IMG/VR virus record: IMGVR_UViG_3300046171_000162
Location: 1-64,000 of that record
DNA: 64,000 nt
Reading direction: 5' to 3' (one strand)
Origin: a virus
The notes beneath the pieces were generated by a model that made no database searches, had not been told where the DNA came from, and worked only from the letters and a program-made list of their open reading frames with translations. Shown here in pieces: positions 47,620-54,359 of this stretch. The first letter of the stretch is position 1. Every line of letters begins with the position of its first letter. Position numbers and translations under genes: made by a program.

Positions 47620-48225
47620 ATGAAACACATGACTATCGCTTCATTGGTTGGTGCTAGTGTCGCCGCCACAGCAGCTCTCGCAGCAGGATTCACCTTCCCA
47701 CCCCAGCAGGTTCCTCCCACAACAGAAGAAGATGTTGTTGAGATACCTGTAATTCCACATGTTCCATCATGGAAGTGTGAAGACTGCACCCCACAAGAAC
47801 AGTATGTCCTCGAACAGCTCCAAGAACACACCCGTATCACTGATCGTAATGCACTTGCTACGATCCTGGGTAACATTAAACAGGAGAGCAAGTTTATTCC
47901 CAACATATGCGAGGGAGGGGCTCGAGTTTCTTACGGGGATTGCTATAGCGGTGGCTATGGTCTTATTCAGTGGACCAGTGTAGGACGTTATAACAATCTC
48001 GGTAACTTCTGTGATAAATACGGCTGTGACCCCAGCAGTCTGGAAGGTCAGACTCGTTACATGATTAACGAGAACATCTTCCAACGCTACCTCCCTGAAT
48101 TTGAGGGCAGTGGTAAAACTGTCCGACAATACATGGTTCCTGCCTACTATTGGTTAGGATGGGGTATCGAAGGTGCTAGGGAGACCTACGCTTATGACTA
48201 CACTCGTCGCTTAACTCTTTCATGA
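47620..48225 (+). CDS. Lysozyme-like protein with N-terminal signal or anchor
   Basis: 201 residues. ALATILGNIKQESKFIPNICEGG and GGYGLIQWTSVGRYNNL match the phage tail lysozyme/lysozyme-2 pattern (GN.ExES, GL.QWt..R), so E in KQES is the likely catalytic acid. The first 25 residues (IASLVGASVAATAALAAGF) form a signal or signal-anchor, as in SAR endolysins. Could be the endolysin or a virion muralytic enzyme. Confidence 0.8.
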   Translation: MKHMTIASLVGASVAATAALAAGFTFPPQQVPPTTEEDVVEIPVIPHVPSWKCEDCTPQEQYVLEQLQEHTRITDRNALATILGNIKQESKFIPNICEGGARVSYGDCYSGGYGLIQWTSVGRYNNLGNFCDKYGCDPSSLEGQTRYMINENIFQRYLPEFEGSGKTVRQYMVPAYYWLGWGIEGARETYAYDYTRRLTLS

Positions 48226-48527
48226 CATATCCAGCACCAAAATATCTCGAAGATGATCCTTGGTTTGGACCTGCTTACTATAGCGAGAAGCAGGAAATTT
48301 TAAAAGCACAATACGATCTCTGTGTAGCAGAAAAACTGCTACTAGCAGAAGAAACCACTGGTGTTCCTAATGATATTCACGAAGTGATGTATCAGATTGC
48401 CACTGGTAGTGGTAAGACAACAGTACAACTGGACCCATTGACTGGACTTGGAGGTGGATCAGAACAGATCCAATCTGCTCCTGGTGGATGGATGTCTGGA
48501 ACAGGAAATCAAGAACTATTTGGTTGA
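48222..48527 (+). CDS. Small protein of unknown function
   Basis: 101 residues; ATGA overlap with the lysozyme-like gene. N-terminal part has Trp/Tyr-rich KYLEDDPWFGPAYYSEKQEIL, the rest is Gly-rich. ATGSGKTT looks like a P-loop but the protein is too short to be an NTPase. Confidence 0.6.
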   Translation: MTYPAPKYLEDDPWFGPAYYSEKQEILKAQYDLCVAEKLLLAEETTGVPNDIHEVMYQIATGSGKTTVQLDPLTGLGGGSEQIQSAPGGWMSGTGNQELFG

Positions 48528-48552
48528 CAACCACTACACTGTATGCTACTAT
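48524..48552 (+). promoter_or_regulatory. Sigma70 promoter of the tmRNA-tRNA cluster
   Basis: TTGACA (48524-48529), 17 bases, TACTAT (48547-48552). Transcription would start near 48559, just ahead of the tmRNA acceptor piece. Confidence 0.75.
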
Positions 48553-48561
48553 ATACAGTGT

Positions 48562-48800
48562 TCAAGAGGTTGCAAAGTCTGTTGTTTTGGACAGGGGTTC
48601 GATTCCCCTCACCTCCACTCATGGGGGTGCCATGGTTTCGACAGGGCAAAAAGGTTGTAATTGTTGACGGAACAAAACCATAGATGCAAACACATCTGAC
48701 TCTGCTGCGAATAACATCGTAGCATTCTCCCGCAGCACCGTTGCTGCCTGAATGGGAGATGGGGGATAAGTTATCCTTCTAATCCAATAACTCTTGGGGG
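48562..48800 (+). ncRNA. ssrA: Circularly permuted two-piece tmRNA
   Basis: Ribosome-rescue RNA. The 3' acceptor piece comes first: T-arm AGGGG-TTCGATT-CCCCT (48593-48609), acceptor strand CACCTCC (48610-48616) and discriminator A. After a 5-base linker the 5' piece begins: GGGGGTG (48623-48629) pairs with CACCTCC over 7 bp, followed by the hallmark GGTTTCGACAGG. The tag frame GCG...TGA (48707-48751) reads ANNIVAFSRSTVAA. This gene order is the permuted form used by cyanobacteria. CCA is not encoded. The 5' and 3' limits given are approximate. Confidence 0.93.
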
Positions 48801-48819
48801 TGCAATGCCCCTTCTTTAT

Positions 48820-48895
48820 GGGCACGTAGCATAATGGATAATGCATCACTCTTCTAAAGTGCCGATTGCTGGTTCGAGTCCAGCCGTGCCTGCCA
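48820..48895 (+). tRNA. tRNA-Arg (anticodon TCT)
   Basis: Acceptor GGGCACG/CGTGCCT (first pair G-U), T-arm GCTGG-TTCGAGT-CCAGC, anticodon loop CTTCTAA. CCA is encoded, and the next tRNA starts at the following base. Reads AGA, a codon common in this phage. Confidence 0.93.
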
Positions 48896-48967
48896 GGGCG
48901 ATTAGCGCAGCGGTAGCGCACCTCCTTTACACGGAGAGGGTCGGGGGTTCGATTCCCTCATCGCCCA
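48896..48967 (+). tRNA. tRNA-Val (anticodon TAC)
   Basis: Acceptor GGGCGAT/ATCGCCC, D-arm with GCGC/GCGC, anticodon stem CCTCC/GGAGA-type with loop TTTACAC, T-loop TTCGATT. CCA is not encoded. Reads GTA. Confidence 0.93.
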
Positions 48968-48983
48968 TAGTATACCTATACTA

Positions 48984-49292
48984 ATGAACAAAGAAAAAGT
49001 AAAAGACCAGCTACATGAGTTGCATTTAGAGCTGGCATACATCAGAGGTATGTTGGAAAATGTTAGTAATCAGATGCAAGAATTGCAACAAATTATTGGA
49101 GAGTCATCCCACCAAAACCAGGTGTTGCGGGTGCCCGAATCTTACGAGCATCCGTGGCACCAACATATCAGGGAAAGATCTGTCTCTTGTGGAGATTGTA
49201 TCGGACCAGAAAGAAAAATCTACACCGAGTCTGTCACCACAAGACTTGGTTTTTCAGGAGGAAAGGCGTCAACGAAAGGTCCGACGCATTGA
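48984..49292 (+). CDS. Possible small coiled-coil protein overlapping the next gene
   Basis: The frame gives 102 residues; the first 45 look like a real amphipathic helix (NKEKVKDQLHELHLELAYIRGML). The remaining part overlaps the zinc-site gene at 49060 in another frame for 233 bases and has no protein-like pattern. It may be a genuine gene with an overlapping tail, or spurious. Confidence 0.4.
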   Translation: MNKEKVKDQLHELHLELAYIRGMLENVSNQMQELQQIIGESSHQNQVLRVPESYEHPWHQHIRERSVSCGDCIGPERKIYTESVTTRLGFSGGKASTKGPTH

Positions 49293-49308
49293 CTTTGAAG
49301 AACGGTAA
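49060..49308 (+). CDS. Small zinc-site protein of unknown function
   Basis: 82 residues. CKNCNK...RCCGCPNL gives two Cys pairs, likely a zinc site; the C-terminus QDLVFQEERRQRKVRRIDFEER is basic and helical. I recall this protein as widely conserved in cyanophages. Function unknown. Confidence 0.7.
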   Translation: MLVIRCKNCNKLLESHPTKTRCCGCPNLTSIRGTNISGKDLSLVEIVSDQKEKSTPSLSPQDLVFQEERRQRKVRRIDFEER

Positions 49309-51139: not shown

Positions 51140-51265
51140 CGGGATCCTCTCGGGTTTCTTGCTTCTCCTAAAAAGCAAGTGGTGCGGGTGATTTGCTGCC
51201 GCCTGGTTTCTTATTTCCAGTCAAAGAATAAGTGGCGAGCCTAGGGGGAAGTAACGCTCTCCCAC
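51140..51265 (+). ncRNA. Structured non-coding stretch, possible RNA
   Basis: No reading frame fits. Hairpins: CTTGCTT/AAGCAAG (51158-51164, 51173-51179), CTTATT/AATAAG (51210-51215, 51227-51232) and GGGGGA/TCTCCC (51244-51249, 51258-51263). It abuts tRNA-Gly. A novel RNA or a long tRNA leader are both possible. Confidence 0.4.
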
Positions 51266-51269
51266 CCTT

Positions 51270-51340
51270 GCGGGATTAGTTTAGAGGCAAAACTAAAGGT
51301 TTCCAACCTTTCGTCACCAGTTCGATTCTGGTATCCCGCT
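51270..51340 (+). tRNA. tRNA-Gly (anticodon TCC)
   Basis: Acceptor GCGGGAT/ATCCCGC, anticodon stem AAAGG/CCTTT with loop TTTCCAA, T-arm CCAG-TTCGATT-CTGG. CCA is not encoded. Reads GGA. Confidence 0.92.
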
Positions 51341-53131: not shown

Positions 53132-53234
53132 GTTAAGAAACCAACACATTTCTTAACGCTTCGTAACACCCCTCAAACCAAGACCTATAGGGTGTATAAC
53201 AACGTCTTTAATACCTCTGCCTAGGGCGCAGAGG
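53132..53234 (+). promoter_or_regulatory. Structured 5' leader of psbA
   Basis: The about 160-base leader has a 9-bp stem GTTAAGAAA/TTTCTTAAC (53132-53157), a 6-bp pairing ACACCC/GGGTGT (53166-53195) and a 7-bp stem CCTCTGC/GCAGAGG (53214-53234). No ribosome binding site close to the ATG. Confidence 0.6.
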
Positions 53235-53282
53235 AATAGTAACTCCACCATTCCCTGATGGTCTTACTTTTTTTCAAAACAA

Positions 53283-54359
53283 ATGGCAACTCTTTCAAGA
53301 CAACAATCACAATCCTCGTGGGATAACTTCTGCGAGTGGGTTACATCGACAAACAACCGTCTCTATGTTGGTTGGTTCGGTGTGCTGATGATCCCAACTC
53401 TGTTGGCGGCAACCATCTGCTTCATCGTTGCTTTCGTAGCAGCACCTCCCGTCGATATCGACGGCATTCGTGAACCCGTCGCTGGTTCACTCATGTACGG
53501 TAACAACATCATCTCTGGTGCAGTTGTTCCCTCCTCCAACGCAATTGGTCTTCACTTCTATCCCATTTGGGAAGCAGCATCTCTTGATGAGTGGCTGTAT
53601 AACGGTGGTCCTTTCCAACTTGTAGTATTCCACTTCCTCATTGGCATCTATGCATATATGGGACGTGAGTGGGAATTGTCCTACCGTCTGGGCATGCGCC
53701 CCTGGATCTGTGTCGCATACTCTGCTCCTGTTGCGGCTGCGTCCGCAGTATTCTTGGTCTACCCCTTTGGTCAAGGTTCGTTCTCCGATGCTATGCCTTT
53801 GGGTATTTCGGGAACCTTCAACTACATGCTGGTCTTCCAAGCCGAACATAACATTCTCATGCACCCCTTCCACATGCTGGGCGTTGCTGGAGTCTTCGGT
53901 GGTTCACTGTTCAGTGCTATGCACGGTTCGCTTGTTACGTCCTCGCTGGTTCGTGAGACGACTGAAACTGAATCTCAAAACTATGGTTACAAGTTCGGAC
54001 AAGAGGAAGAGACATACAACATCGTAGCCGCTCATGGTTACTTCGGTCGTTTGATCTTCCAATACGCATCATTCAACAACTCCCGTTCACTCCACTTCTT
54101 CTTGGCAGCATGGCCAGTAGTGGGTATCTGGTTCACCGCACTTGGTGTTAGCACCATGGCGTTCAACCTGAACGGATTCAACTTCAACCAGTCCATCCTT
54201 GATGGTCAGGGTCGTGTGTTGAACACCTGGGCAGACGTTCTCAACCGCGCTGGTCTGGGTATGGAAGTCATGCACGAGCGTAACGCTCACAACTTCCCCC
54301 TTGACCTTGCTGCTGCAGAGTCTACCCCCGTTGCACTCACCGCACCTACTGTCGGTTGA
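53283..54359 (+). CDS. psbA: Photosystem II D1 protein
   Basis: 358-residue reaction-centre subunit that keeps photosynthesis running as host D1 is lost. Typical D1 stretches run throughout: [22 protein letters not shown], the helix regions with His ligands ([25 protein letters not shown]), [21 protein letters not shown], and the C-terminal [12 protein letters not shown] processing region. Uninterrupted: no intron is visible, unlike in some cyanophages. Confidence 0.98.

Follow-up and report, generated by a model that had tools for sequence, protein, structure and literature searches.

Known Permuted and Phage-Borne tmRNAs

To our knowledge, tmRNA is nearly universal in bacteria. Mycobacteriophage Bxz1 and its relatives carry a tmRNA of the standard form. 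The DS6A tmRNA consists of the TLD only and has no coding region. In marine Synechococcus and Prochlorococcus, tmRNA is described by the Rfam model cyano_tmRNA (RF01851), with which the phage gene considered here shares the permuted order, the tRNA-like domain, the G3.U70 pair, the tag core ANNIVxFSR, and the 3′-terminal hairpin.

According to a 2022 report (PMC9004378), tmRNA occurs in 402 of 18,146 genomes, which makes the remark in the original prediction that tmRNA genes are rare in phages a fair one, and two-piece forms account for 53 of the 133 unique structures. The same report describes permuted tmRNAs in marine phages, places the cyanophage genes in a tree with those of cyanobacteria, and names AG-345-P14. 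The two-piece tmRNAs of Melnitz, Mosig, and AG-345-P14 presented there resemble our gene in their permuted form and in their marine T4-like carrier; the Melnitz tmRNA is of the alphaproteobacterial type and stands under a glutamine riboswitch. Since permuted tmRNAs of marine phages, cyanophages included, have been in print since that report, the gene belongs to a known kind; it is a new, perhaps already listed, member of the marine-phage two-piece tmRNAs. A 2025 tmRNA database, for which RefSeq viruses were searched, has 79 phage sequences. In the main texts of the open papers searched, no description was found of the tag extension, the hairpin at the resume codon, or the diversity of phage tag ends, and these three features seem to be undescribed.

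The tmRNA Gene of an S-CAM1-Like Cyanophage

The window, i.e., the whole stretch of 64,000 nucleotides that was analysed, is 99.6–99.7% identical to Synechococcus phage S-CAM1 over 24 kb, and its source is S-CAM1 or a near-identical isolate; the virus record containing it has 197,476 bases. S-CAM1 is a lytic T4-like phage of marine cyanobacteria from the family Kyanoviridae.

A phage-encoded circularly permuted two-piece tmRNA had been predicted from the letters alone, and the covariance-model search proposed as its check gave two matches above the gathering thresholds. The prediction made no mention of the promoter, the G3.U70 pair, the tag extension, or the hairpin at the resume codon, all of which are described below. 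Rfam cmscan places RF01851 cyano_tmRNA at 48543–48811 on the plus strand (128.2 bits, E 2e-34; gathering 70) and RF04321 tmRNA_permuted at 48568–48751 (99.1 bits; gathering 47). Independently, ARAGORN reports a permuted tmRNA* with the tag ANTSDSAANNIVAFSRSTVAA at 48686–48751. What the phage carries is a circularly permuted tmRNA gene of cyanobacterial type. The acceptor half with the T-arm and CACCTCC indeed precedes the half that starts with GGGGGTG, and the coordinates given for them are correct in the sequence:

48559–48617, plus strand: predicted acceptor piece (P2 5′ strand, T-arm, 3′ acceptor strand, discriminator A), from the cyano_tmRNA alignment
48582–48589 and 48642–48649, plus strand: long P2 helix, TTGTTTTG with CAGGGCAA, pairing from the cyano_tmRNA alignment
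48593–48597 and 48605–48609, plus strand: T-stem, AGGGG with CCCCT, 5/5 pairs
48610–48616, plus strand: 3′ acceptor strand CACCTCC, from the sequence
48617, plus strand: discriminator A (A73), from the sequence
48618–48622, plus strand: linker CTCAT between the acceptor strands, from the sequence
48623–48811, plus strand: predicted coding piece (5′ acceptor strand, P2 3′ strand, tag frame, 3′ structures), from the cyano_tmRNA alignment and fold
48623–48629, plus strand: 5′ acceptor strand GGGGGTG, from the sequence
48633–48642, plus strand: TGGTTTCGAC in the coding piece, from the cyano_tmRNA alignment
48796–48812, plus strand: terminator-like 3′-terminal hairpin, the last helix of the cyano_tmRNA model, from a consensus scan

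The T-arm, the GGTTTCGAC element, and the long P2 helix are all present in the cyano_tmRNA alignment. The acceptor strands form 7/7 pairs across the 5-base linker, just as predicted, and the alanine identity determinants are in place: G3.U70 is formed by G48625 with T48614, and A73 is A48617. The linker, which tRNA-processing enzymes are expected to excise, is 5–6 bases long in 52 phage relatives and most commonly 6 in hosts, so that its length of 5 is not an unusual feature. The precursor (48559–48812) folds at −93.6 kcal/mol, below all 200 of its shuffled versions (mean −75.3, z −4.05). The 3′ region, which may hold one or more pseudoknots, aligns to the cyano_tmRNA model. Two mature pieces are predicted for the phage tmRNA, and two have been seen on northern blots for Prochlorococcus, a host relative (PMC1242208).

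Promoter and Genomic Setting

The gene is preceded by a promoter-like sequence and followed by two tRNA genes:

48524–48552, plus strand: sigma-70-like promoter (TTGACA 48524–48529, 17-base spacer, TACTAT 48547–48552), from a consensus scan
48820–48895, plus strand: tRNA-Arg(TCT), directly downstream of the tmRNA (ARAGORN, Rfam RF00005)
48896–48967, plus strand: tRNA-Val(TAC), adjoining tRNA-Arg (ARAGORN, Rfam RF00005)

The promoter has 10 of 12 consensus matches, with TG preceding the second hexamer. Transcription is predicted to start near 48559, where the 5′ end of the acceptor piece would also lie, judging from the promoter position; the initial bases of the Rfam match therefore probably lie outside the transcript. 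The pattern TTGAC[A/T]...TA[C/A]TAT recurs upstream of the tmRNA in seven relatives (S-CAM3, AG-345-P14, L018, L047, L081, L083, and L110), among which the spacers between the conserved hexamers have diverged. An inverted repeat, ACACTGTAT...ATACAGTGT, at 48536–48562 spans the predicted −10 element and is possibly an operator or a 5′ hairpin. Control by a glutamine riboswitch, as for Melnitz, is rejected, with no glnA-type match in 48100–49300 at E up to 5.

The two downstream tRNAs are likely to form a shared processing context with the tmRNA; in several relatives, the tmRNA lies close behind a tRNA, inside a tRNA cluster. Farther along, Rfam finds a wcaG RNA motif (51150–51246, 83.5 bits) followed by tRNA-Gly at 51270, and a PhotoRC-II RNA motif (53154–53247, 69.6 bits) just upstream of a 358-aa ORF at 53283; for this region, the matching S-CAM1 records have a photosystem D1 annotation.

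No tmRNA feature is annotated at the locus in the S-CAM1 records examined. In S-SSM7 and S-CAM3, “hypothetical protein” genes overlie the tmRNA (SSSM7_025, L002:2486–2704, and gp053, L006:2523–2663) and are probably spurious. Phage tmRNA thus stands in the examined records either unannotated or under doubtful “hypothetical protein” genes.

Relatives and Distribution

A BLAST search of 50,697 phage records returned S-CAM1, S-CAM3, AG-345-P14, Sf-FS3, S-SSM7/S-SSM6a, and S-CRM01, and weakly S-CBWM1. About 470 phage records match the region around the tmRNA and few carry the gene, which makes it a minority trait; since most cyanomyoviruses lack it, the tmRNA is dispensable. Pattern scans of IMG/VR found permuted tmRNA-like sequence on 105 contigs and the extended tag type described below on 48. 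The comparison set comprised 77 cyanobacterial-type phage sequences and 139 picocyanobacterial ones, near-copies being included in both counts; S-CBWM1 (L233), whose T-loop falls outside the parser, was left out of the counts.

All 52 parsed phage relatives have 7/7 acceptor pairs, G3.U70, and 5/5 T-stem pairs; their acceptor strands come in seven combinations, and pairs 5, 6, and 7 are altered on both sides. A tree built for the 5′ portion, on a short alignment that leaves many inner forks open, separates all 36 phage sequences from 94 hosts by a branch with 100/100 support. This supports a long-separate phage tmRNA pool, without details of its branching, and the position of all the phage genes beyond a fully supported branch disfavours recent host capture; as far as a short sequence and the sampled hosts allow, the split leads us to reject recent capture from a present-day host.

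The patchy distribution, the recombination at the tag described below, and the location in a tRNA region, together with the known use of host tmRNA genes as integration sites (PMC9004378), might suggest a passenger or relic, i.e., a gene captured from the host, or a site of recombination or attachment, that is functionless in the phage. Such a reading appears very improbable to us, given the compensatory changes, the invariant G3.U70, the coding selection on the tag, the promoter conserved in diverged phages, and the grouping of the phage genes apart from hosts.

Two further members can be mentioned here. S-CBWM1, placed outside Kyanoviridae in its record, contains an unannotated permuted tmRNA (L233:1942–2259, ARAGORN) with the tag ANKIVAFHRQAVSCA. 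In the freshwater phage S-CRM01, an unannotated permuted tmRNA (L003:2470–2779) lies beside tRNA-Met and tRNA-Leu, and its tag ends in VAAL, one residue beyond VAA. In the host family, 30 of the 201 sampled genomes (including G004) gave no cyano_tmRNA match under stricter filters, likely due to incomplete assemblies.

The Extended Tag and Selection on Its Codons

48686–48751, plus strand: tag reading frame (resume codon GCA 48686–48688, ANTSDSAANNIVAFSRSTVAA, stop TGA 48749–48751), from ARAGORN

The tag has 21 codons, and the frame in phase from GCA 48686 includes the predicted peptide ANTSDSAANNIVAFSR. Residues 1–7 make up a phage extension, ANTSDSA, whose codons stand before the host-like ANNIVAFSR. 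The resume codon is preceded by TAGAT, with UA at −5/−4; the E. coli counterpart is UAGUC, in which A86 sets the tag reading frame (PMC2481249). Resumption at the host-like GCG (codon 8) is rejected because the −4 base there is T and not A, the equivalent of E. coli A86. N-terminal extensions of 6–8 codons define a class of 55 among the 77 phage sequences, and this class was not seen among the 139 host sequences. One viral contig (L045:10879–11269) has a permuted tmRNA of another type with a long tag and its own N-terminal extension, ANADTFEFSGFNFTGNTVRGAANEGRFALAA, so tag extensions may have more than one origin in phages.

Across the 27 distinct phage sequences of the tag core ANNIVxFSR, all nine third codon positions vary, compared with four first and two second positions; by a hand calculation that treats columns as exchangeable, all nine third positions would be among the 15 variable ones with a probability of about 0.001. 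Single-base codon differences in the core are synonymous in 1104 cases and nonsynonymous in 158, the pairs compared being non-independent. Third positions also answer to pairing, since the second of the helices described below overlies the core codons. As the tag codons are under purifying selection, the tag is probably translated, and the conservation of the acceptor and T-stem together with the codon pattern provides strong signs, of a comparative kind, of an RNA that is charged and translated.

Hairpins over the Resume Codon and the Tag Core

48681–48698, plus strand: resume-codon hairpin (TAGATG 48681–48686, loop CAAACA, CATCTG 48693–48698), which folds locally
48704–48723, plus strand: second hairpin, over the ANNIVA codons (GCTGCGA 48704–48710 with TCGTAGC 48717–48723)

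The first hairpin contains the counterparts of E. coli U85, A86, and G90; owing to the extension, the frame-setting bases and the opening base of the resume codon come to lie in a helix. A stem of at least 4 bp at the resume codon occurs in 29/29 distinct extended phage regions vs. 0/64 distinct host regions; in 500 shufflings of synonymous codons, the same stem was found in 12.4 regions on average and 21 at most, against the 29 observed. The helix covers positions −5 to +1, wholly or partly, in every extended region and in no host, and takes the forms TAGATG/CATCTG in S-CAM1, TATCTG/CAGATA in AG-345-P14, GACG/CGTC in L083, and GATG/CATC in L017 and the AKDIDTA group. In the second hairpin, GCT/GCA and GTA/GTT covary. 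In an alignment of 15 sequences, both hairpins show 100% pairing, and four of their pairs differ on both sides, a number that none of 500 shuffles reached; the two such pairs in the first helix come from one divergent aligned sequence, to which forms in a shifted register outside the alignment can be added.

In E. coli, a helix of positions 85–90/95–100 has been proposed to explain the failure of an A86 mutant (Miller et al., PMC2481249), and its 5′ arm is that of the phage helix too. SmpB is said to contact the five bases immediately upstream of the resume codon (PMC8012679). Thus, the phage tmRNAs keep a structure that, on current models, should hinder resumption, and in our reading the hairpin is probably an element that tunes it. 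The rule that SmpB needs the bases just ahead of the resume codon to be unpaired finds a natural test in this conserved hairpin.

The resemblance to a helix proposed to inactivate an E. coli mutant is a counterpoint to a working tmRNA. Taken with the helix over −5 to +1 in all the extended regions and no host, and with the inhibition of tmRNA by a DS6A-like RNA, it could point to a decoy, i.e., a charged, SmpB-binding RNA that resumes poorly because its frame-setting bases are hidden and that damps host trans-translation as DS6A would. This we hold to be improbable: the tag frame and its stop are retained, with the tag codons under coding selection; many phage tmRNAs without the extension also lack the hairpin; and the stem is a short one that includes A-U and G.U pairs. 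Ribosomes unwind short stems of this kind.

Tag Ends and Their Exchange

All 139 host tags end in [V/I]AA (VAA in 138, IAA in one). The 77 phage tags are of 36 types; 34 end in VAA, and the other 43 in ATA (21), VAV (8), ALV (5), VTA (4), QTV (3), AAL (1), and FLV (1). Tag length ranges from 14 to 32 residues in phages vs. 16–18 in hosts. Different tags are found on near-identical 5′ halves, and vice versa (for example, L051/L087, L083/L111, L018/L051), which probably reflects exchange of the tag half by recombination. Phage tag variants can be regarded as ready-made degron alleles.

All three patterns would fit a diversion of the tag as the main role of phage tmRNAs, whereby altered C-termini weaken recognition by the host protease, so that ribosomes are freed and the fragments are lost less quickly or degraded by another route. 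We consider this possible, if rather doubtful. The S-CAM1 tag itself ends in VAA, like the host tags, and the fragments it marks are therefore probably still degraded; the last-residue degron has been established for E. coli and is assumed for phage tags; and drift is a possible source of the variety of ends.

Partners and Role in Infection

Profile searches, in which the positive controls were positive, found neither SmpB nor ClpP in the phage record, and a self-contained phage system with its own SmpB or ClpP is rejected on this ground. SmpB is present in 5/5 picocyanobacterial genomes searched, a set outside which the isolation host WH7803 lies. The phage tmRNA would thus use SmpB, AlaRS, EF-Tu, RNase P, and proteases of the host. 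The phage had been suggested to replace or alter host ribosome rescue: the data point to a supplement to host rescue, with altered tags across the family, more than to a replacement, as no SmpB is detectable in the phage record.

The gene, its tRNA-like determinants, the selection on tag codons, and the conservation of the hairpin are established here, and we infer expression, processing, charging, rescue, and an effect of the hairpin. The tmRNA would be transcribed from its own sigma-70-like promoter, and the precursor would be cut by host tRNA-processing enzymes (RNase P), as for the neighbouring tRNAs. The acceptor piece would then end at A48617 and receive CCA, and the coding piece would begin at G48623. 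Host AlaRS is expected to charge the acceptor piece through G3.U70, and host SmpB and EF-Tu to bring the charged tmRNA to stalled ribosomes, which would add A-ANTSDSAANNIVAFSRSTVAA once the weak hairpin has melted and would then be released. Such a tmRNA could add rescue capacity while infection yields many broken mRNAs. As has also been proposed for phage tmRNAs (PMC9004378, PMC12656738), the gain would most likely be additional ribosome rescue in infected cells. Overall, we consider it likely that this is a working permuted tmRNA that adds rescue capacity in infection via host factors and whose weak hairpin probably tunes resumption.

A more far-reaching idea, offered tentatively and with less belief than disbelief, is that of a separate, recombining cyanophage tmRNA family in which the hairpin gates or tunes trans-translation and exchanged tags alter the fate of tagged proteins. 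If true, it would be a phage-specific form of ribosome rescue and not a copy of the host's.

Comparison with Known Systems

The AG-345-P14 gene is a direct relative, with 76.7% identity over about 220 bases. Like those of Bxz1 and DS6A, the S-CAM1 tmRNA gene is phage-borne; it differs in being permuted and in having, in contrast to DS6A, a tag frame. Against the cyano_tmRNA model, it scores 128 bits, while hosts score about 285–330 bits. Compared with host cyano_tmRNA, the phage gene has a 7-residue N-terminal extension and a hairpin over −5 to +1, its tag tail is STVAA where hosts have Q[T/A]APVAA, and SmpB is not encoded with it. In the cyanophage family, the parts for charging and ribosome entry are fixed, and the parts that set resumption, along with the tag, are changed; the family bears on why some lytic phages carry a tmRNA of their own.
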